DNA from: Acetobacter ghanensis
GTDB lineage: Bacteria; Pseudomonadota; Alphaproteobacteria; Acetobacterales; Acetobacteraceae
Direction of reading: 5' to 3'
Assembly: GCF_001499675.1 (NCBI RefSeq)
Contig: NZ_LN609302.1
Coordinates: forward strand, 404,896-468,895
Length of the DNA: 64,000 nucleotides
A program made the translations under genes and the position numbers. This document shows positions 91 to 57,277 of this stretch, piece by piece (the stretch's first letter is position 1; every line of letters starts with the position of its first letter). The notes beneath the pieces are model-generated. The model searched no databases. It had not been told where the DNA came from and was given only the letters and a program-made list of their open reading frames with translations.

Positions 91-1002
91 TCAAGATTTT
101 AACAAAGCCAGAACCGTATCTAGCTGATCGAGATTTTTATAGTGAATTTCCAAAGAGCCACCTTTGCGGCCATCAAAATTCACAGCCACCTTCAGCCCCA
201 GTCTGTTGGCCAGGTCACGCTCAAGCGCTGCGATTTCTGGATTTCTGGTTTTTTTCTCTTCAGCCGCTGGTTTACGGTTCTGCTGTTCCAACGCCTTTTG
301 CACCAGAGCTTCAGTCTGACGGACAGACAGGCCCTTGGCAATCACCTCTGCTGCTGCTGCTATGGCATTAGGGTGTGCCAACAATGCTCTGGCATGGCCT
401 GCGGATAACGTGCCTTTTTTCAGCTCATCCCGAACAGCCGGCGGTAGCTTGAGCAAACGCAGCATGTTGGCAACATGCGGCCGGGACTTGCCAATGGCTT
501 TGGCCAGTTCATCCTGCGTCAGGCTGTATTCGTCCATCAAGCGGCTAAAGCCTTCCGCCTCTTCCACAGGGTTGAGGTCCGCACGCTGGAGGTTTTCCAC
601 CAACGCGGCGGCCATAGCATCTGCTTCGCTCAGATCACGCACATGCACCGGAACTTCGTGGCACTGGGCTAGCTGGGCGGCGCGCCACCTGCGCTCCCCT
701 GCGATAATCTGATACTGACCTTTTTTATTCGGGTCCGGACGCACCAGAATAGGCTGTAAAATACCACGCTCACGAATGGACTCAGCCAGTTCCTCAAGAG
801 CGGCTGGCTCCATATCCTGCCGTGGTTGAAAAGGTCCGGCAACAAGAGCCTCGACCGGAAGAACGCTCACTGCACCACCCTTCTGTTCGGAATCAGTTCC
901 TTTTGCATTAGCGGATACGCCAGCGGCTTCCCCCAATAATGCTGCGAGTCCTCTGCCCAGTTTAGGGCGGGCAGCAGACTTGCTCCGCGGTGGTGCGCTC
1001 AT
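91..1002 (-). CDS. parB: Chromosome partitioning protein ParB
   Basis: Centromere-binding CTP-dependent clamp of the ParABS chromosome segregation system; it loads at parS and spreads. The 303-aa protein has a basic N-terminus (ParA-interaction region), the ParB/Srx CTP-binding motif GERRWRA at about residues 102-108, the [14 protein letters not shown] segment at 136-149 and a helix-turn-helix at about 163-182 that should read parS. The C-terminal dimerisation domain is present. Its start overlaps the parA stop by four bases, so the two are probably translationally coupled. Two perfect parS sites lie upstream in the same gene cluster. Confidence 0.97.
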
Positions 1003-1790
1003 GCCGTTCTCCTCATAATTTCGGCAGCAAGCGCCTGATACGCCGCAGCCCCGGTTGCACGGGGGTCATACGTCATGACGGGCAGACCATGGCTTTGCGC
1101 CTCGGAAATACGAATATTTCTGGGGATAAGGGTCTCAAGGACATCATCCCCAAAAAAGCTGCGCGCATCTGCCGCAACCAGTTCAGACAGATTATTGCGC
1201 TTGTCATACATGGTGAGCACAATGCCTGCGATCTTAAGATCCGGATTAAGATTTTTGGTGACATGCCCAATGGTTTTAACCAGATGCCCCAACCCTTCCA
1301 ACGCAAAGAATTCGCACTGCAAGGGCGCCAGCACACCATGGGCCGCCACAAGGGCATTGAGCGTAAGCAGGCCAAGGCTTGGGGGGCAGTCGATAATAAT
1401 ATAGTCAGCCTGCTGGGCCAGAGGGGCTAAGGCCTCGCTCAGGCGATGCTCCCGCCCTTCTGTGTCAACCAGCTCAATTTCTGCCCCAACCAACTCGGTA
1501 TTGGCAGCAATAACAGACAGGTTCTCAATTTCCGTCGGTTGCAGAACATCCTGCGCAGACTTTTCGTGCATAAGCAGGGCATAGGCCCCACCTTTTCTGG
1601 CATCGTAACTGACGCCAACACCCGTGGACGCATTGCCCTGCGGGTCCAGATCCAGAAGAACAACACGAGCGCCATCGGCTGCCAGAGCTGCTGCCAGATT
1701 AATGGCCGTGGTGGTTTTGCCCACGCCGCCTTTCTGGTTTGCTACTGCAAGAATGCAGCAGTCTTTTCTGTTCTTTTTAGCCTTCTGCAC
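999..1790 (-). CDS. parA: Chromosome partitioning ATPase ParA
   Basis: ParA/MinD-family ATPase whose nucleoid-bound gradient moves ParB-parS complexes during segregation. The deviant Walker A motif KGGVGKTTT is at residues 20-28 with the signature lysine, followed by [10 protein letters not shown] at about 47-56. Length of 263 aa is typical. The start overlaps the end of rsmG by 14 bp, which supports one transcript mnmE-mnmG-rsmG-parA-parB, the conserved origin-proximal order in many bacteria. Confidence 0.97.
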
Positions 1791-2373
1791 GATTAAAATT
1801 ACTCACTTCCAGAATCACACCATCGGGGCTTGTCTTGCTGGGCCATGACCGGACATCAAACCGCCAGGTCTTAGCCGCATCCTCAATTTCCTGTTCAGCC
1901 TGCCGTCCTTTTAAAAACAGGCCAACGCCATCGGGCTTTAGCAAGGGACGAGCCCATTCCAACAATTTGTCCAACGGGGCCAGCGCACGCGCCGTTACAA
2001 CGGGTGCAGGGGCAACTTCCGCACGGTCAAGCCGGCATGGCAGAACGGTCAACTGCGCGCCGGTTATTCTGGCAGCCTCACGCAGAAAAGCAGATTTTCT
2101 TTGGTCCGCCTCAATCAGAACACCCGGAATATTGGCGGCAATACCGACCACAATACCGGGGAATCCCCCTCCTGACCCCATATCAACAAAATGTCTGCGC
2201 CCTTTTAACAAAGGAACCAGTTGGAGACTATCCAGAATATGCCGCTCCCACAGGTTATCCATATCCTTTGGGGAAACCAGATTAATCCGCTCATTCCATT
2301 TTTTGAGCAGCGCCGCATAAGCCTGCAATCGTTCTTCTGTTTCACGTGAAACAGAAACACTCTCACTCTGCAT
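1777..2373 (-). CDS. rsmG: 16S rRNA (guanine(527)-N(7))-methyltransferase RsmG
   Basis: Methylates N7 of G527 in 16S rRNA (GidB family). The SAM-binding loop [10 protein letters not shown] is present, and the total length of about 198 aa fits the family. The open frame extends further upstream, but the extra residues are antisense-like and lie inside mnmG. The start is either this ATG or the in-frame ATG six bases upstream at 2379, both overlapping the 3' end of mnmG. A perfect parS site is embedded in the first codons and encodes the SVSRETEE stretch. Confidence 0.93.
2338..2353. promoter_or_regulatory. parS site 1 (perfect palindrome)
   Basis: TGTTTCACGTGAAACA is an exact match to the 16-bp bacterial parS consensus bound by ParB. 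It lies inside the start of rsmG, about 9 kb from the proposed origin, so the coding sequence has to accommodate it. Confidence 0.95.
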
Positions 2374-4249
2374 GAGCATGGTCCTGACCTTTACGCAAAT
2401 ACGCCAGAATGGCCATAAGCGCGGATGGCGTAATGCCGGGAATTCTCTGCGCGGCACTAAAGCTCTCGGGCTTGGCCTGCTCCAACCGTTCCCGCATTTC
2501 GGCACTCAGCCCACCAATGCTGGCAAAATCCATTGCTGCGGGAAACCGGATTTCTGTCTCAGCTTCAAGCTGTTTGATTTCCCTGTTCTGGCGGGTCAGA
2601 TACCCACTATACCGCGCCTGAGTGGTAACATACTGCCGAACACGATCTGGCACATTCAAAAACCATGGCGCCACCTGCTCCACTACGGACTGATCGGCCC
2701 CATAGCCCATAATTTCCAGCAAGGTTCTACGCTTGCCGTCCTGCGCTACTTTCATCCCCACACTGGCAAGTTGTTGCGGCTGCCAGCTCTCGGCCTGTGC
2801 CCGCTCTGTTACAGACTCAATTTCCGCCAGTTCATGCTCAAAGGCCGCTTTACGTTGAGCCCCAACACAGCCCCACTCCATACCCAGCTTTGTCAGACGA
2901 ATATCAGCATTATCGGCCCGCAGCGTCAGCCTGTATTCCGCGCGAGAGGTGAACATACGGTAGGGTTCGCTCACCCCCTGCGTTGTCAGGTCATCCACCA
3001 TAACGCCAATATAGGCCTTGCCTCTATCCAGACTGACGGAGGACTGCCCCCCTGCGCGCCGAGCAGCATTGACCCCGGCCAGAAGCCCCTGCGCACCGGC
3101 CTCCTCATACCCTGTTGTCCCATTAATCTGCCCGGCCAGAAACAGACCGGGGCACTGCCGCAGTTCAAGCGATGTGGTTAGTTCACGCGGGTCAACATAG
3201 TCATACTCCACAGCGTAACCATACTGCGCAATAACAGCGCGCTCGAGGCCGGGGATAGAATGGATCATGGCATCCTGCACATCCGCAGGCAGGCTGGTGG
3301 AAATTCCATTGGGGTAAACCAGATTTCCGCCCTCATGCTCCGGTAGCGCTTCGGGTTCCAGAAAAATCTGATGGCTGGTTTTTTCCGCAAACCGCACGAC
3401 TTTGTCTTCGATCGAAGGGCAATACCGTGGCCCACGGCCAGAAATTGCCCCACCATATACCGCAGACAGATGCAGATGCTCCCTGATAATATCGTGCGTT
3501 TTCTGTGTTGTCGCCGTAATGCCACAAACCATCTGACGGTTGGTTATGCTCTGTGTCATGCGGCTGAACGGTTCTGGGATATCGTCCCCTTTATCCTCAG
3601 CCAGCACGCTCCATTCAATACTATCCCGCTCAAGTCTTGCGGGGGTCCCTGTTTTGAGCCGGCCCATTCGTAGGTTCATGGAACGCAGACGCTGCGCGAG
3701 TGCAACCGAGGGTTGTTCGCCTATGCGTCCAGCGGGCTTTGATTTATGCCCAATATGAATAATTCCATCCAGAAAGGTTCCAGTGGTCAGCACCACGGCT
3801 CCAGCCTGCCATTGCCTGCCATCTTCACAAACAACACCACACACACGCCCGTCCGGCTGGCACAACAGGTCGGCGGCGGCACCTTGCTCTATATCCAGCC
3901 CCGGTGTTTGCTCCAGCATGTCCTGAATGGCCTGCCGGTATAACATGCGGTCAGCTTGCGCACGCGGCCCCTGCACTGCAGGCCCTTTGGAACGATTAAG
4001 CAATTTGAAGTGAATGCCCGCCCTATCTGCCGCGCGGCCCATAAGCCCATCCAGCGCATCAATTTCACGCACCAGATGGCCCTTACCAATACCGCCAATA
4101 GCGGGATTGCAGGACATGGCACCAACCGTCTTTTTATTATGCGTGAGCAGCAGCGTTCTGGCGCCACAACGTGCAGCCGCAGCAGCGGCCTCGCACCCTG
4201 CGTGGCCACCGCCCACCACAATCACATCATAAGACACCATCATAACCAT
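2363..4249 (-). CDS. mnmG: tRNA uridine-5-carboxymethylaminomethyl synthesis enzyme MnmG
   Basis: FAD-dependent partner of MnmE (GidA) that installs the carboxymethylaminomethyl group on U34 of certain tRNAs. The N-terminal dinucleotide-binding motif [10 protein letters not shown] is at about residues 12-21, followed by the family signature [12 protein letters not shown] and a C-terminal helical GidA domain. At 628 aa it is full length. It sits 18 bp downstream of mnmE and overlaps rsmG, consistent with a single operon. The ATG at 4249 is followed by further Met codons (MVMMVSYDV), so the exact start could be up to three codons later. Confidence 0.97.
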
Positions 4250-4267
4250 AGGTCCTGCACTACACCG

Positions 4268-5587
4268 TTATTTACCAATACAAAACTGCCCGAAAATGGA
4301 ACCGAGCAGTTCCTCCACCCCAACATGCCCTGTAAGACGGCCCAAAGCCCGCATGGCCAGGCGCAACTCCTCGCCACGCACTTCCGGCCATTCCTGCCGC
4401 AATGCTTCCTCCAGACTGGCACATGCCTCTTTAACACCAGCGCTATGGCGCGCTCTGGTCAGCAGCGGCATGTTGGTGGATGAGGCCGTAAGCTCCTGCA
4501 CTTTGCTTTCCAGTATCTGCCGCAACGCGCCCAAACCCTGCCCACTTTTAAGACTAACCGGCACAACAGGAACGCCCTCTACCTCTGCCGGAAGTGGTGC
4601 CAAGTCAAGCTTGTTCCCCACCAGAATTGCATCAGGAAAAACACTTTGCGGCACATCCGTTGCAGCGAACATCTGCACAACGCAGTCTGCCTGTTTCACG
4701 TGAAACAACGCACGGCGCACACCTTCGGCTTCAATTTCATCCTCGGTTTCACGCAGGCCTGCCGTATCCACAAACGTAACTTTTATGCCCGCCAGACTGC
4801 CGACAATTTCCAACGCATCACGCGTTGTTCCCGCTATGGACGAAACTATGGCCGCATCCCGCTCCGCCAGCCAGTTCAGCAAGCTGGATTTCCCCGCATT
4901 GGGTGGCCCCGTAATGGCAAACACCACACCCCGTCGGATACGCTCACCCAGTTTGCCGTCTGCAATATGCTGCTGCATCTGGTCAATAAGCTGACGGATT
5001 CCTGAACGAATTTCCTCCTCCACTTCTGGAGGCAAATCCTCATCTGGGAAATCAATCAACGCTTCCTGAAACGCCAGAAGCTTTTTAAGCCGATCCGCCC
5101 AACCTTGGTAAACACCGCTTAACGCGCCATCAGCCTGTGCAAGGGCCTGCCTGCGCTGGCTTTCCGTTTCCGCTGCAATCAGGTCTGCTATCCCCTCGGC
5201 TTCCACAAGGTCCATCCGCCCATTGGTAAAAGCCCGGCGTGTAAACTCGCCCGGTTCGGCTGGTCTGGCGCCGCCCTGCACAAGGGCATTGGACACAGCC
5301 TGAATAATAGCAGGACCCGCATGGAGGTGCAGTTCAAACCCATCCTCCCCCGTATAGCTTTTTGGCCCCGGAAACCACAGCACAAGAGCCTCATCCAGCA
5401 GTGTGTCCTGCGTGCTGGCCTGCTGCCACACACGACGCAACACCGCTTTACGCGGAGGAGGCAGGGCACCACAGAGCTTTATCAGCAGGTCTGCGCTCCC
5501 TTTGCCGCTCACACGCATAACGGCAATGGCAGCCCGCTCCACCCCCGTAGAAAGAGCAAAAATGGTGCCTTCCCCCTGATACCCCAC
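4268..5587 (-). CDS. mnmE: tRNA modification GTPase MnmE
   Basis: G protein that acts with MnmG in U34 tRNA modification. The N-terminal folate-binding domain is followed by a helical domain carrying the inserted G domain, with the P-loop GPPNAGKSS at 227-235. The C-terminal CIGK motif with the conserved cysteine is intact (residues 436-439). Length of 439 aa is normal. It is the first gene of the mnmE-mnmG-rsmG-parAB cluster; the roughly 180 bp upstream to the divergent ogt gene should hold its promoter. A second parS site lies within its G domain coding region. Confidence 0.97.
   Translation of the reverse strand: MGYQGEGTIFALSTGVERAAIAVMRVSGKGSADLLIKLCGALPPPRKAVLRRVWQQASTQDTLLDEALVLWFPGPKSYTGEDGFELHLHAGPAIIQAVSNALVQGGARPAEPGEFTRRAFTNGRMDLVEAEGIADLIAAETESQRRQALAQADGALSGVYQGWADRLKKLLAFQEALIDFPDEDLPPEVEEEIRSGIRQLIDQMQQHIADGKLGERIRRGVVFAITGPPNAGKSSLLNWLAERDAAIVSSIAGTTRDALEIVGSLAGIKVTFVDTAGLRETEDEIEAEGVRRALFHVKQADCVVQMFAATDVPQSVFPDAILVGNKLDLAPLPAEVEGVPVVPVSLKSGQGLGALRQILESKVQELTASSTNMPLLTRARHSAGVKEACASLEEALRQEWPEVRGEELRLAMRALGRLTGHVGVEELLGSIFGQFCIGK
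4692..4707. promoter_or_regulatory. parS site 2 (perfect palindrome)
   Basis: A second exact copy of TGTTTCACGTGAAACA, 2.35 kb from the first and inside mnmE (it encodes FHVKQ). Two perfect copies this close to parAB are not expected by chance. Confidence 0.95.
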
Positions 5588-9344: not shown

Positions 9345-10036
9345 TATGATACGACCTTGACCAGTCTGGAAAGAATTTCTGGAAAGTCAGACAGTTTGTC
9401 TATTCTTTCGACCCCTTTCCAATCAGGTATCGCCTTGCCCGGCTCACGCAGCATAACACAGGCCATGCCAGCATTAACAGCCGCTCTGGCTCCGGGGTCA
9501 CTATCTTCCAGCACCACACATTCGTAAGGCTGAACACCTTCCGCTTCTGCAGCCTTAAGATACACATCCGGCCGGGGTTTAGGTGTGCCCATATCCCGCG
9601 CTGAATGAATACGCCCATCAAAGTAAGGCGTAAGCTCGGTCACTGCAAACTTTACATCCATTTCCTCGCAAGAGGAGTTGGACGCAACCCTTACGGGAAT
9701 CCCCAGTTCTTTCACGGCATCCAGCATGGCATGTACGCCAGAAATGGGTTCAACACCCTCCTTCATGGCAGCCACAAAACGCTGCTGCATTGTGGGCTCC
9801 CATTGGGGGCCAAGCTTTTTGCCCGCGTGCTGTTCGATCATAGGTTGAATGGTTGCCAGGGACATACCAGAAAAAGTCTGGACGGCCAGATTATCTGGCA
9901 CGTCCCACCCAGCATCCCGCGCCGCCTGAGCACACAGGCGGCAGCAGGCTTCCTCGCTATCAACCAGCACACCATCACAGTCAAAAATAACCAGTTTAAG
10001 CGGTCCACGAAAAACCTGTGAGAGTGCTGATGGCAT
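9344..10036 (-). CDS. HAD-superfamily hydrolase (subfamily IA phosphatase)
   Basis: The motif I signature DCDGVLVDS is at residues 19-27 with both catalytic aspartates. Motif II (VRVASNSS) and the Asp of motif IV (VVLEDSDPGARAA) follow. The helical cap between motifs I and II fits beta-phosphoglucomutase/CbbY/Gph-like phosphatases acting on small phosphorylated metabolites. Substrate cannot be told. It lies between hemE and hemJ with stop/start overlaps on both sides, so expression is tied to heme synthesis, though a direct heme role is not established. Confidence 0.88.
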   Translation of the reverse strand: MPSALSQVFRGPLKLVIFDCDGVLVDSEEACCRLCAQAARDAGWDVPDNLAVQTFSGMSLATIQPMIEQHAGKKLGPQWEPTMQQRFVAAMKEGVEPISGVHAMLDAVKELGIPVRVASNSSCEEMDVKFAVTELTPYFDGRIHSARDMGTPKPRPDVYLKAAEAEGVQPYECVVLEDSDPGARAAVNAGMACVMLREPGKAIPDWKGVERIDKLSDFPEILSRLVKVVS

Positions 10037-11115
10037 CAGGCTGTTTCCCGCACTGTCCGCACAAGATCGGCCACATGCTCAACTGGTGTTTGAGGCAGAA
10101 CACCATGCCCAAGGTTAAATACATGGGCACGCCCTCGTCCTGCTTCACGCACACGCAGGGCCTCACGTCGCATGGCTTCGCCCCCAGCAAGTACAGCCAC
10201 AGGGTCCAAATTCCCCTGTAGTCCCAGAGTCTGGGGGACCATATCGCGCACAATGGCCATATCAGCCCCTGTATCCAGCGCCAGCACATCTACCCCGGTT
10301 TCACGCGCATATTCAGCAGCCATAACACCGGCAAGACGCGGAAAACCGATAACGCGAACATGCGGGTAACGGGATTTGATGGTCTGAACAATCTGCCGGC
10401 TGGGCTGGATAACGTGACGGCGGAATTCAGACGGCGGAAGAAGCCCGGCCCATGAATCAAACAGCATGACGGCTTCAGCACCGGCTTCAATCTGGGCGCA
10501 AAGATAAGTTGCCGTTGTTTCCGTCAACAGGGCCATAAGCCGATCAAAAAGAGCAGGTTCGGAAAAAGCCATGTTCCGCGTTACAGAAAACTCACGCGAT
10601 CCACGCCCTTCTACCATGTAGCAGGCAACGGTAAACGGCGCGCCGGTAAAGCCGAGCAAAGTTGTTGCGCCCGGTTTGGCAACACCAATGCTGTCTGGTC
10701 CATCCACGGCCTTGCGCAACCGGGACAAGGTCTCAATTACAGGGGCGGTGGCCTCGGCAATGCGGGCGGGGTCCAGTGCGTTCAGGTCCTGTTCAGAACG
10801 AATGGCGCCCAGAACGGGGCCTGTGCCTTCCACAAACTCCAAAGACTGACCCATGGCCCATGGCAGAATCAAAATATCGGAGAACAGGATGGCCCCATCC
10901 ATGCCAAACCGGCGGATAGGTTGCAGGGTTAGTTCTGTTGCAATGTCCGGTGTCATGCAACGGGTCAGAAAATCCGCCTGAGCACGCATGGCGCGGAATT
11001 CAGGCAGGAACCGCCCGGCCTGTCTCATCAACCACATCGGAGGGGGCCAGAGAGCTTCTCCATTGAGACTTCTGAGCAGACGTTTGGCGGAGGGAATATG
11101 TGTTTGCGTTGTCAT
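10036..11115 (-). CDS. hemE: Uroporphyrinogen decarboxylase
   Basis: Converts uroporphyrinogen III to coproporphyrinogen III. The N-terminal signature PMWLMRQAGR, the downstream GMDGAILFSDIL and GFTGAPFTVACYM segments and a length of 359 aa are typical. The frame opens 45 bp upstream, but the ATG starting MTTQTHIPSAKRLLR fits the family. It is the first gene of hemE-HAD-hemJ and faces away from the proposed oriC, as hemE does in Caulobacter and relatives. Confidence 0.97.
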   Translation of the reverse strand: MTTQTHIPSAKRLLRSLNGEALWPPPMWLMRQAGRFLPEFRAMRAQADFLTRCMTPDIATELTLQPIRRFGMDGAILFSDILILPWAMGQSLEFVEGTGPVLGAIRSEQDLNALDPARIAEATAPVIETLSRLRKAVDGPDSIGVAKPGATTLLGFTGAPFTVACYMVEGRGSREFSVTRNMAFSEPALFDRLMALLTETTATYLCAQIEAGAEAVMLFDSWAGLLPPSEFRRHVIQPSRQIVQTIKSRYPHVRVIGFPRLAGVMAAEYARETGVDVLALDTGADMAIVRDMVPQTLGLQGNLDPVAVLAGGEAMRREALRVREAGRGRAHVFNLGHGVLPQTPVEHVADLVRTVRETA

Positions 11116-11483
11116 GAGCAGAAGTCCTGCACGTCTTTGTCTGCGCTGTCCACGTCCCACTTCCTATAAAAAAAGAAAGAAAAAGGTTTGATGAAGTATG
11201 AGGGTACTGTTGATAACGGGGTACCCGGCATTCCAAAAATGTACCCCACCTTTCCCACAGTGTGTACAGATTGAAGACCCTTGCAAAACAAAGGATTTTT
11301 GAAGTTATCCAGAAAACATCCAACACCCCCTGTGTACAACTCACCGGTTCATGAGAGTTGCAAGTTGTGCCCGGTACTCGGTACGGCCATGTTCTGAACT
11401 CCGTACAATCCACATGTACCCCGGTACTAAGGATAGTACTCACAGCCCCTTTTTTGACCAGTACCTGAAAGAGACTCGCTCCC
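11116..11483. other. oriC: Candidate chromosomal replication origin (oriC)
   Basis: Non-coding 368 bp between divergent hemE and maf. In Caulobacter and several other alphaproteobacteria oriC lies beside hemE. Seen here: an A-rich stretch at 11168-11187, and 9-mers one mismatch from the DnaA box or its complement at 11208-11216 (TGTTGATAA), 11305-11313 (TTATCCAGA) and 11332-11340 (TGTGTACAA). A weaker one is at 11406-11414 (CAATCCACA). Two perfect parS sites and parAB lie within 10 kb. A perfect TTATCCACA is absent and I could not compute GC skew, so this rests on position and imperfect boxes. It may also hold the hemE and maf promoters. Confidence 0.65.
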
Positions 11484-11499
11484 GTGACCGATTTAGTAC
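11204..11499. repeat. Cluster of 13 GTAC palindromes
   Basis: GTAC begins at 11204, 11221, 11241, 11264, 11334, 11374, 11381, 11403, 11416, 11424, 11436, 11461 and 11496. Thirteen copies in 296 bp compares with about 1.2 expected at equal base frequencies. Several are longer: CCGGTACT twice, GTACCCC twice, TGTGTACA twice, and the 10-bp palindrome TTAGTACTAA at the last site, inside the first codons of maf. Spacing is irregular, so this is neither a tandem nor a CRISPR array. Confidence 0.85.
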
Positions 11500-12116
11500 T
11501 AATGCCGACTCTAATACAGAACAGAGCAGATAAACTGCTTTTAGCCAGTGGATCATGGACCAGACGGCGTATTCTGGAAAATGCAGGACTGGTCTTTGAG
11601 GTTGAAGCGTCACCAGTGGATGAGGCTCCGCTGAAGCAGGAAGGACGGCAGAAAAACTGGTCAGCCGATGTGGTGGCTCTGCGTCTGGCAGAAGCCAAGG
11701 CTCTGTCGATCAAAAAACAGGATACAATTGTGATCGGGGCCGACCAGATGCTGACATGCGGTGCAGACTGGTATGACAAGCCAGAGGGGCTGGCAGGTGC
11801 ACGGCAGCAGCTGCTTCAGCTCAGAGGAAAAACGCATGTCCTGCATACAGCAGTTGTGCTGTGCCAGAATGGGCATGTTCTCTGGCGTCATGTTGCCCAA
11901 CCCACGCTGACCATGCGCATGTTCTCACATTCTTTTGTGGATGCTTATCTGGCTATGGAGGGAGAAGCCTGTCTGGGTTCTGTCGGGTCTTACAGGCTGG
12001 AGGGGCCGGGCATACAACTCTTTGCCACTATAGAAGGGGATGCGTTTGCCATTCAGGGTTTGCCCTTATTGCCCCTTATTGCAGCCTTGCGGGATATGAA
12101 AGTGCTGCCAGATTAA
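11484..12116 (+). CDS. maf: Maf-family nucleotide pyrophosphatase
   Basis: Maf/YceF/YhdE family; these hydrolyse dTTP/UTP or modified nucleoside triphosphates to monophosphates as house-cleaning enzymes. The N-terminal motif LLLASGSWTRR and the DTIVIGADQML segment are visible; length is about 204-210 aa. The GTG starts the frame; an ATG six codons on (11502) is an alternative start. It diverges from hemE across the proposed origin. In many alphaproteobacteria maf is followed by aroE, coaE and dnaQ; here a tRNA follows instead. Confidence 0.9.
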   Translation: MTDLVLMPTLIQNRADKLLLASGSWTRRRILENAGLVFEVEASPVDEAPLKQEGRQKNWSADVVALRLAEAKALSIKKQDTIVIGADQMLTCGADWYDKPEGLAGARQQLLQLRGKTHVLHTAVVLCQNGHVLWRHVAQPTLTMRMFSHSFVDAYLAMEGEACLGSVGSYRLEGPGIQLFATIEGDAFAIQGLPLLPLIAALRDMKVLPD

Positions 12117-12214
12117 AAATAGGGGTTGTCAGCGTTTTGAGGAGGTTGTAAGAGGCTCAACACACGCAGCGGGACTGTTGCAAAACAGAACCAGACAGTG
12201 TGTGACAGAACAGT

Positions 12215-12290
<76 letters not shown>

Positions 12291-12454
12291 GTTCTTCTTC
12301 CCAAAAAAATGCGATGAAATTGCGACTGTTAAAAAACAGTAGCCAGCATTTTTAGGGATATTGCCTTTTTTCAGACATATCCGGATGCCACAGTCTTTGG
12401 CAGGCAAGGCGTTAGGCGCTTTGCACATGGTATTTATGAAGCGAAGGCTGAATA

Positions 12455-55297: not shown

Positions 55298-55672
55298 ATG
55301 ACAGGGCGACTGAGACTGACATTGCGGGTTGATGCCGATGGCCGTGCGGCATTGGGGCACGGCAAGGTACGCCTGCTGGAACAGTTGGCGGAAACCGGGT
55401 CCATTTCCGCCGCGGGCCGCGCCATGGGCATGTCCTACAGGCGCACATGGCTGCTGGTGGACAATCTGAACCAGCTTTTTGTGGAGCCTCTGGTTATGAC
55501 CAGACCCGGCGGGGGTGGGGGTGCGTTCCTGACCGAAACCGGCAAAACCGTTCTGGCCCTTTACCGGCAGATCGAGCAGGATGCAGCCCAAGCAACCCAG
55601 GCTGGCCTTAGCCAGATGGAAGCTCTGTTGGCACCGCAGGCGGAATGCCTCCAAAAAACCTTATCTGAGTGA
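55298..55672 (+). CDS. ModE-type N-terminal winged-helix regulator
   Basis: 124 aa. GKVRLLEQLAETGSISAAGRAMGMSYRRTWLLVDNLN is the ModE/LysR-type helix-turn-helix (motifs GSISAAGRAMG and SYRRTW). It lacks the C-terminal TOBE/molybdate-binding domains of full ModE, so it resembles the HTH-only ModE subgroup. It may regulate opgGH, which begins 60 bp later on the same strand, but this is only context. Confidence 0.85.
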   Translation: MTGRLRLTLRVDADGRAALGHGKVRLLEQLAETGSISAAGRAMGMSYRRTWLLVDNLNQLFVEPLVMTRPGGGGGAFLTETGKTVLALYRQIEQDAAQATQAGLSQMEALLAPQAECLQKTLSE

Positions 55673-55732: not shown

Positions 55733-57277
55733 GTGTCATCAAACGTACAGCGACGAGGGGTCATTCGGGCCGGGGCAGGCGTGACTTTGGCATCGCTTGT
55801 TGGCGGAGTCGCCCGTAAGGCGCGCGCGGAGGGCCTGAGTGGGGCCACAGGTAAGTTTGATGACAGCACCGTAATTCAGATTGCCCGCCGGCTGGCAAAT
55901 GCGGAATATCATCCTCCGGGCCAGAGCCTGCCTAAAGCGTTGGATAATCTGACATTCGACCAATATCGGGGCATTGCCTACAGGCCCGACCGCGCCTTGT
56001 GGGCCGGGGATAATCTGGCATTTGATGTTGAGTTCTTCCCCCGCGGTTTTCTTTATCGCCCCCGTATTGAAATTTATGAGGTCAGGGACGGGCAGGCTGG
56101 CGTTGTGCCCTACTCCCCCGACCTGTTCACCTACGCGGACCCCGCCTTGCGGGTAACGGACGATCTGGGTTTTGCCGGGGTCCGCCTGCGTACCGCCATT
56201 AACACCCCCGGTGTTATGGAAGAATTCTGCGTCTTTTTGGGGGCGTCCTACTTCCGGGCTGTTGCCAAAGGGCAGGATTACGGCCTGTCCGCCCGTGGTT
56301 TTGCCAATGGGACGGGGGACCCCAAGGGCGAGGAATTCGCCCTCTTCCGCGCATTCTGGCTGGAAAAACCCCAACCCGGCGTGCAGTCCATTGTGGTCCA
56401 TGCCCTGCTGGACAGCCCAGCGGTGACAGGTGCTTTCCGCTTTACTATCCGCCCCGGTGACAACACCGTGTTTGATGTGCAGACAACCTTGTTCCCGCGG
56501 ACCAAAATCGAGCAGTCCGGCATCGCACCGTTGACCGGCATGTTCTATTTTGATGTGAACGACCACAACCACGTGGACGACTGGCGCCCCGCAGCGCATG
56601 ACAGTGAAGCCCTGCAAATGTGGACAGGTGCTGACCTGCAACTCTATCGCCCGTTGCGTAACCCGCTGGACCTCCAGTTCTCAACCTTCTCGGATGTGTC
56701 TCCCCGTGGGTTCGGGCTGATGCAGCGCCGCCGTGCCTTCCATGACTTTGAGGATCTGGCGCTTCATTACGAAAAACGCCCTTCCTTGTGGATCGAACCG
56801 ATCGGGGATTGGGGTGCTGGCTGGGTAGATCTGGTGGAAATTCCCACCCCGAACGAGGTGAACGACAACATCGTTTCCTTCTGGCGGCCCAAGGAGCCGT
56901 TGCGTGCAGGGCAGGAATACCACTTTACCTACCGGATGTACTGGGGGTGGGATGCGCCCTTCCCCACGCCGCTGGCCCGTATTGGCGCAACCCGCATTGG
57001 CTCGGTTGTGGACAATAATGACGCCCGTTTTTTTGCCATAGACTTTATGGGGACGCCCTTTGAGCATCTGCCCAAGGACACCCATTTTCATGTGACGCCC
57101 AAAACCTCGGCAGGCAAAATCCAGAATGTGGTGGTCGAGCCTAATCCGGAAATTAACGGTGTGCGCACAACTTTCGAGTTTGTGCCCGGTGATGCCAAGG
57201 TCGCGGATCTGAGCGCGACGCTGGAAACGGATGCAGGGCCTATTTCTGAACAGTGGCTGTATCGGTGGACGCCGTAA
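55733..57277 (+). CDS. opgG: Periplasmic glucan biosynthesis protein OpgG/OpgD
   Basis: Periplasmic branching/modifying protein for osmoregulated periplasmic glucans (MdoG family), 514 aa. A Tat-like signal (RRGVIRAGAGVTLASLVGG) suggests folded export, as for OpgD. FDQYRGIAYRPDRALW, FHP-type FDVEFFPRGFLY and YHFTYRMYWGWDAPFP are family motifs. GTG start. It precedes opgH by 2 bp. Confidence 0.93.
   Translation: MSSNVQRRGVIRAGAGVTLASLVGGVARKARAEGLSGATGKFDDSTVIQIARRLANAEYHPPGQSLPKALDNLTFDQYRGIAYRPDRALWAGDNLAFDVEFFPRGFLYRPRIEIYEVRDGQAGVVPYSPDLFTYADPALRVTDDLGFAGVRLRTAINTPGVMEEFCVFLGASYFRAVAKGQDYGLSARGFANGTGDPKGEEFALFRAFWLEKPQPGVQSIVVHALLDSPAVTGAFRFTIRPGDNTVFDVQTTLFPRTKIEQSGIAPLTGMFYFDVNDHNHVDDWRPAAHDSEALQMWTGADLQLYRPLRNPLDLQFSTFSDVSPRGFGLMQRRRAFHDFEDLALHYEKRPSLWIEPIGDWGAGWVDLVEIPTPNEVNDNIVSFWRPKEPLRAGQEYHFTYRMYWGWDAPFPTPLARIGATRIGSVVDNNDARFFAIDFMGTPFEHLPKDTHFHVTPKTSAGKIQNVVVEPNPEINGVRTTFEFVPGDAKVADLSATLETDAGPISEQWLYRWTP

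Follow-up and report, generated by a model that had tools for sequence, protein, structure and literature searches.

The window, by which we mean the whole 64-kb stretch of DNA from an acetic acid bacterium that was analysed here, contains at 11116..11483 an intergenic gap that separates two divergent genes. On its left, hemE, encoding uroporphyrinogen decarboxylase, is read from the minus strand (10036..11115; TIGR01464, 364 bits), and on its right a gene for a maf-like nucleotide pyrophosphatase is read from the plus strand (11484..12116); the latter matches PRK02478 and the maf models with scores under the curated cut-offs, and the ATG at 11502 is an alternative start. The genes parB, parA, gidB, gidA and mnmE are all found within 91-5587 of the window, parB (91-1002, minus strand) scoring over the cut-off of TIGR00180 and parA (999-1790, minus strand) under the cut-off of the ParA-family models. 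A motif scan placed perfect parS sites at 2338..2353 and 4692..4707. With up to two mismatches allowed, 0.03 sites would be expected in the window, and these two are the only perfect copies in the whole 2.84-Mb genome, both lying 6-9 kb from the gap. The original prediction had described divergent hemE and maf genes around a 368-bp gap, the adjacency of hemE with parABS nearby, two perfect parS sites within 10 kb and an A-rich tract; the gene coordinates, profile matches and parS scan bear out the first three, and the A-rich tract is present at 11165..11186 (plus strand). This tract, which aligns at the matching place in the gaps of the same genus, is a candidate unwinding element. Across 29 loci of the same genus, the gap measures 367-378 bp in 22 and 405-446 bp in seven.

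Other types of element were also considered. Rfam over 10900-12400 gave only a tRNA at 12215, direct repeats or iterons of at least 10 bases were not found, and no sigma-70 promoter was detected in 11000-11600. Two GANTC sites of the CcrM type are present at 11473..11511 (motif scan; starts 11473 and 11507). The exact CtrA motif, TTAA-N7-TTAA, has no occurrence in the window, and control of the CtrA type was therefore dropped.

The GC skew was sampled along the main contig (2,664,599 bp) in twenty 20-kb samples. It was negative in all four samples to the left of the window, positive in all ten between 480 kb and 1.75 Mb and negative again in all six between 1.86 and 2.55 Mb, with a value of nearly zero at 1.995 Mb. 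Therefore, the sign switches once in the window and once at a roughly opposite place on the chromosome. Inside the window the flip falls between the first and the second 8-kb bin, and the cumulative skew has its minimum at 10329, 0.8 kb from the gap. Whole-genome skew had been named as a check in the original prediction, and it supports the claim that the gap is the chromosomal origin; the DnaA boxes and hemE, which had been given as reasons, are weaker ones. An origin elsewhere in the window is ruled out by the skew. Given the sign change and minimum of the skew and the two parS sites, unique in the genome, we consider it very likely that the hemE-maf gap is the chromosomal oriC of this acetic acid bacterium (Acetobacteraceae). 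Among the deposited relatives, contig C1 of genome G021 ends exactly at the hemE start (L035, G021:C1:1-3000), and C1 of G069, G086 and G087 starts at or near the hemE gap; some depositors thus seem to have set position 1 at the origin.

The element that best identifies this origin is a cluster of GTAC palindromes, which the original prediction had missed. Thirteen copies occupy 11204..11499 (at 11204, 11221, 11241, 11264, 11334, 11374, 11381, 11403, 11416, 11424, 11436, 11461 and 11496), 12 of them inside the gap coordinates 11116-11483. In the 385 bp from 11116 to 11500, 13 copies are present, whereas 5000 dinucleotide shuffles average 1.99 and never exceed 8, and the density of the array is about 18-fold that of the window as a whole (119 GTAC in 64 kb). 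Elsewhere, the genome is poor in this tetramer, with 608 copies in the 400 kb sampled against 887 expected from trinucleotides. Close GTAC triplets number 19 in the genome: seven belong to the array and the other 12 are each single. A triplet at 829 kb, which looked origin-like at first sight, lies among genes that by eye are phage-tail-like. One of the 20 samples (L260, G000:C1:1995001-2015000) has the fewest GTAC (9, against 18-44 in the others), together with a near-zero skew and 128 GATC, and is perhaps an acquired island.

The original prediction had also reported several 9-mers one mismatch away from a DnaA box in the gap. Only two such boxes are present, so that "several" was overstated, and the accompanying remark that the matches are imperfect holds, none being perfect. 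The two are TTATCAACA at 11208..11216 (minus strand), which abuts the GTAC at 11204, and TTATCCAGA at 11305..11313 (plus strand), which has 40 occurrences in 65 gaps of relatives. Over the whole window, 16 boxes with at most one mismatch were counted against 9.9 expected, and 5 of 100 shuffles reach 16; such boxes are not clearly enriched over the window. Allowing two mismatches raises the number in the gap to five, against 1.2 expected from the window's rate. The additional three are TTTCCCACA at 11251..11259 (plus strand; 37 occurrences in the 65 gaps), TTGTACACA at 11331..11339 (minus strand), which contains the GTAC at 11334 and is the commonest box-like 9-mer with 77 occurrences in the 65 gaps, and CAATCCACA at 11406..11414 (plus strand), between the GTAC at 11403 and 11416. 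In the window, three of the five boxes overlap a GTAC or sit within 1 bp of one, and four lie within 4 bp. Over the 65 gaps, where the loci outside the genus were chosen for at least 6 GTAC, 167 of 345 boxes overlap a GTAC or are within 1 bp, compared with 133.6 expected, and contact between DnaA-like boxes and GTAC is thus only slightly above chance. The 65 cluster loci together contain six perfect DnaA boxes.

The array is a constant feature of the genus. All 37 same-genus genomes carry 8-16 GTAC at the site (29 gaps, 7 loci and the gap of L035, which is also the gap of L023, a locus dropped at a contig end), and the 29 gaps together have 347 GTAC where 59.6 are expected. Among 55 further loci of the family, six of them from the same genus, 29 have at least 6 GTAC in the 400 bp upstream of hemE and 26 have 0-2. 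Class-level outgroups have 0-1 GTAC in 600 bp in the 12 of 18 matching outgroups that were covered. Genomes that gave no hemE match were dropped from these comparisons (six of 61, and also G635 and G748). A pattern scan of named genomes gave a similar picture: among the 80 matches listed, all 15 from Acetobacteraceae, including Acetobacter, Gluconobacter, Gluconacetobacter and Asaia, have 8-16 GTAC, and 20 hand-picked from the 65 listed matches outside this family have 1-5.

Comparison of individual positions points to the tetramer itself. In an alignment of 61 relatives with the window, the columns of the window's own GTAC sites are 90% identical and the other columns 65%; in the 25 least similar rows the values are 80% and 53%, and the GTAC columns stand above the remaining columns in 61/61 comparisons. 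Of the 62 rows of this alignment, the 36 from the same genus were unselected and 26 were chosen for at least 8 GTAC, which favours the result. Four of the 12 in-gap sites are kept in all 62 aligned rows and a fifth in 60; the gap's other tetramers survive intact in a median of 19% of rows. Moreover, 131 of the 758 GTAC in the 62 rows fall where the window has none, and therefore the sites turn over while their number is maintained. We consider it very likely that selection acts on GTAC as such.

Part of the array can be recognised as a block of 25 bases, GTACCC-N10-AAAY-GTACC (11221..11245, plus strand), found in exactly one copy in each of 144 of the 395 genomes of the order, from 23 genera. 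It detects 67 of the 71 known clusters, which are its own source set, and none of 26 negatives, and an off-register control pattern shifted by one base has no match in the 395 genomes. In two genera, g37 and g61, the array is missing at hemE (one locus each) and the same array lies about 20-32 kb from that gene. The skew of one such genome was covered: in G147, from g37, the minimum falls at 55,550, close to the array (about 55,900-56,300), with hemE 21 kb off, at 77,223. It is thus the array that marks the origin, rather than hemE; the rearrangement in G147 parts the two markers, and the skew minimum stays with the array.

Clustering of a four-base palindrome at an origin hints at methylation. 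Three methylases of family PF01555 are encoded in the genome, namely a CcrM homologue, a protein that matches NF010253 over its cut-off (L057, G000:C1:293175-293717) and a 284-residue enzyme that seems to be of the RsaI type (G000:C1:1246547-1247395; L056:1372-2223; PF01555, 149 bits), whose gene is 0.83 Mb from the origin gap. The CcrM homologue (L055) scores 633 bits with NF050803, under the model cut-off of 830, and the 284-residue enzyme 69 bits; since a separate CcrM homologue exists, CcrM was rejected as the identity of the methylase matching the array. A Tim44-domain gene and a cytochrome c peroxidase-like gene flank the 284-residue methylase gene, with hemC-like and hemD-like genes upstream (all names except Tim44 were given by eye). 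The three neighbours tested included no recognisable restriction enzyme. The endonuclease model PDLC03550 matched 0/385 genomes and its controls were silent too, which makes it uninformative.

Among annotated phages, the closest proteins are cyanophage methylases with 43-45% identity over 88-92% of the length, and in Syn19 and ACG-2014j the methylase gene overlaps a gene annotated as R.RsaI endonuclease. The neighbour with this label matches a PADLOC type II restriction model in Syn19 (42 bits) and does so weakly in ACG-2014j (17 bits). PDLC03295 of PADLOC is the best model for both our methylase (266 bits; next best 134) and that of Syn19 (283 bits; next best 142). Our enzyme and the cyanophage enzymes have in common the region VKSI..GHFKP.NS.R and the stretch before HP.TFP, which are absent in CcrM. 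The closest phage relative (48%) is unannotated, a relative in ACG-2014f has no R.RsaI label beside it, and two Paracoccus plasmids, one of them carrying the closest plasmid relative (51%), also have no such label. The 284-residue methylase has the motif SPPY, compared with DPPY in CcrM; by the usual motif rule SPPY would fit m4C. GTAC is the site cut by RsaI. In Rhodobacter blasticus, M.RsaI places m4C in this tetramer (PMC6256690), and M.PabI and M.CviQI are described as making m6A there (PMC4357717). Taken together, the depositors' R.RsaI label and the homology make it likely that GTAC is the target of the 284-residue methylase. In G084, a second copy of the methylase (L235:5846-6979), 54-57% identical and with a C-terminal extension, lies close to genes that by eye resemble an integrase and a further methylase; it perhaps belongs to a prophage that mimics the GTAC mark of its host.

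Orthologues of the methylase (E up to 1e-60) were found in 190 of the 395 genomes of the order and in 44 of 84 genera. When the two lists were compared by eye, 144 genomes had block and methylase, none had the block without the methylase, 46 had the methylase without the block and 205 had neither; some of the 46 have a divergent cluster. Methylase-negative loci of the family have 0-3 GTAC per 400 bp near hemE in 38/38 cases. A perfect co-occurrence of methylase and cluster at the level of genera was rejected, being broken by methylase without cluster, which is common outside the acetic acid clade. Indeed, 20 methylase-positive genomes taken as lying outside this clade, among them g342 and g352, which were not placed in the HemE tree, have 1-5 GTAC per 400 bp near hemE. 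Because the methylase often occurs there without the array, it seems to be the older of the two, and the methylase alone is not sufficient for the array. In pairs of methylase-positive and methylase-negative genomes from the same genus, the GTAC counts near hemE are 5/3 for G676/G766 (g336), 1/2 for G712/G670 (g334) and 4/3 for G604/G611 (g325); acquiring or losing only the methylase thus had no clear effect on the origin in these genera.

The converse situation is found in g27 (one genome) and g65 (two genomes), which have neither methylase nor block; a search of one representative genome of each detected no GTAC cluster. Both fall inside the acetic acid clade in a 79-row HemE tree, with support of 97/84 and 100/95 for the enclosing branches and weak support (96/51) for their grouping as sisters, and their joint absence of methylase and array may represent one or two losses. 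Cluster labels on this tree were assigned by hand, G676 with 5 GTAC being labelled positive, and the tree is open to distortion by long branches or odd base composition. The skew minimum of g27 and g65 lies within about 2 kb of hemE. Beside hemE, the g27 genome (L061, G063) carries an origin-like array in which 14 perfect DnaA boxes TTATCCACA fall within 270 bp (948,575-948,843 of C1), and g65 has two perfect boxes. In these genera array and methylase are thus absent together, their place being taken by perfect DnaA boxes, numerous in g27 but few in g65.

We propose that DnaA loading at oriC is tuned by an RsaI-type methylase that marks the GTAC sites there, in the manner of Dam and SeqA at GATC, and we give this reading a probability of roughly 60%. 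The methylase, which has no recognised restriction partner, would methylate GTAC, probably on the C as m4C, and after replication the array would be hemimethylated. Whether by itself or via a reader protein, the state of methylation might then alter the loading of DnaA on the weak boxes among the GTAC, and this altered loading would help the origin to fire once per cycle. The choice of base, the influence on DnaA and the putative reader are conjectural parts of this model. The gap appears to behave like a methylation-site origin and is a candidate member of that kind. More tentatively, and with somewhat greater doubt than belief, acetic acid bacteria might have invented an m4C methylation clock at oriC independently of Dam/SeqA, by recruiting a methylase from restriction-modification, with a putative reader of hemimethylated GTAC that holds back re-initiation. 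If this is true, initiation would be controlled in m4C rather than m6A, alongside CcrM, and g27 and g65 would have reverted naturally to an origin of the DnaA-box type.

The array might instead consist of binding sites for a sequence-specific protein, either an accessory factor of the initiator or an altered DnaA, that acts independently of methylation, the methylase being an unrelated core gene of the clade. Several observations agree with this explanation: certain flanks are conserved (CTGTGTACA in 63 and ATGTACCCC in 61 of the 65 loci, those outside the genus having been chosen for at least 6 GTAC), the commonest DnaA-like 9-mer of these origins is TTGTACACA, and many genera have the methylase without the cluster. 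However, when flanks are pooled over 777 GTAC sites they are weak, with no flanking base above 42%, as for a four-base methylation site; moreover, none of the 144 block genomes is without the methylase, and both are missing in g27 and g65. We regard a methylation-independent array as unlikely, yet deserving of serious attention.

It could also be argued that this is an ordinary hemE-type oriC, in which GTAC was inherited without a role of its own and the co-occurrence with the methylase reflects shared ancestry. The hemE neighbourhood, parABS and the skew would be enough to explain an origin, and most block-positive genomes belong to one clade. Such passive inheritance is nevertheless quite improbable in our view, given the better preservation of the GTAC columns in every comparison and the sites at new places (in rows partly selected for GTAC), and given that in G147 the array is at the skew minimum away from hemE. 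The position of the cluster between two divergent genes would be compatible with a regulatory region of hemE or maf, with the true origin elsewhere nearby, but the cluster is far from hemE in g37 and g61 and coincides with the skew minimum in the one genome of this kind tested, so that we give a regulatory region hardly any credence.

The location of the origin itself has been given differently for this genus. In two reports, oriC of A. pasteurianus 386B is placed near dnaA (PMC3751514) and that of A. cerevisiae KSO5 near dnaA at the skew maximum (PMC13209655); the two placements count against the reading of the hemE gap as the origin. A. cerevisiae KSO5 carries the methylase (P0015). A literature search on titles and the beginnings of abstracts, which covered longer lists in part and left most subscription journals outside, returned no link of GTAC to an Acetobacteraceae origin, and no methylome of the acetic acid group was found.

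The present work offers a sequence-defined origin for industrial Acetobacter, Gluconobacter, Asaia and Gluconacetobacter, where two published predictions point to dnaA instead. It also provides a second candidate methylation-site origin that can be put to the test and would have evolved apart from that of E. coli, and genera without the GTAC system are ready-made controls. Should initiation prove to be controlled by the GTAC methylase, methylation clocks at origins would have arisen more than once and would not be confined to gammaproteobacteria with Dam.

The locus can be compared with several known systems. As in RsaI restriction-modification, the methylase resembles two cyanophage enzymes encoded beside genes annotated as R.RsaI (43-45% identity over 89-92%); unlike in that system, it lies between the Tim44-domain and cytochrome c peroxidase-like genes, with no recognised endonuclease among the three neighbours tested. 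It belongs to PF01555 like CcrM, but has SPPY in place of DPPY and exists besides the genome's own CcrM homologue. In Caulobacter, Cori adjoins hemE (PMC1914354). The present gap agrees with origins of this hemE type in the adjacent hemE, the nearby parABS and gidAB, the CcrM homologue and the two GANTC sites, and differs from them in that the window is without TTAA-N7-TTAA, maf lies directly across the gap and the gap has no perfect DnaA box. With regard to Dam and SeqA, the differences are that the tetramer is GTAC and not GATC, that the methylase is a PF01555 enzyme of the RsaI kind (SPPY) and not Dam, that the excess of contacts between boxes and palindromes is only slight here, and that methylation is predicted from sequence; to our knowledge, there is no SeqA-like reader for GTAC. 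In E. coli oriC, several low-affinity DnaA sites overlap some of 11 GATC, which SeqA binds when hemimethylated (PMC5145175). The gap analysed here has in common with that origin a dense array of a four-base palindrome (11 GATC there and 13 GTAC here), a methylase that is conserved together with the array and has no recognised restriction partner, and weak DnaA-like sites among the palindromes.
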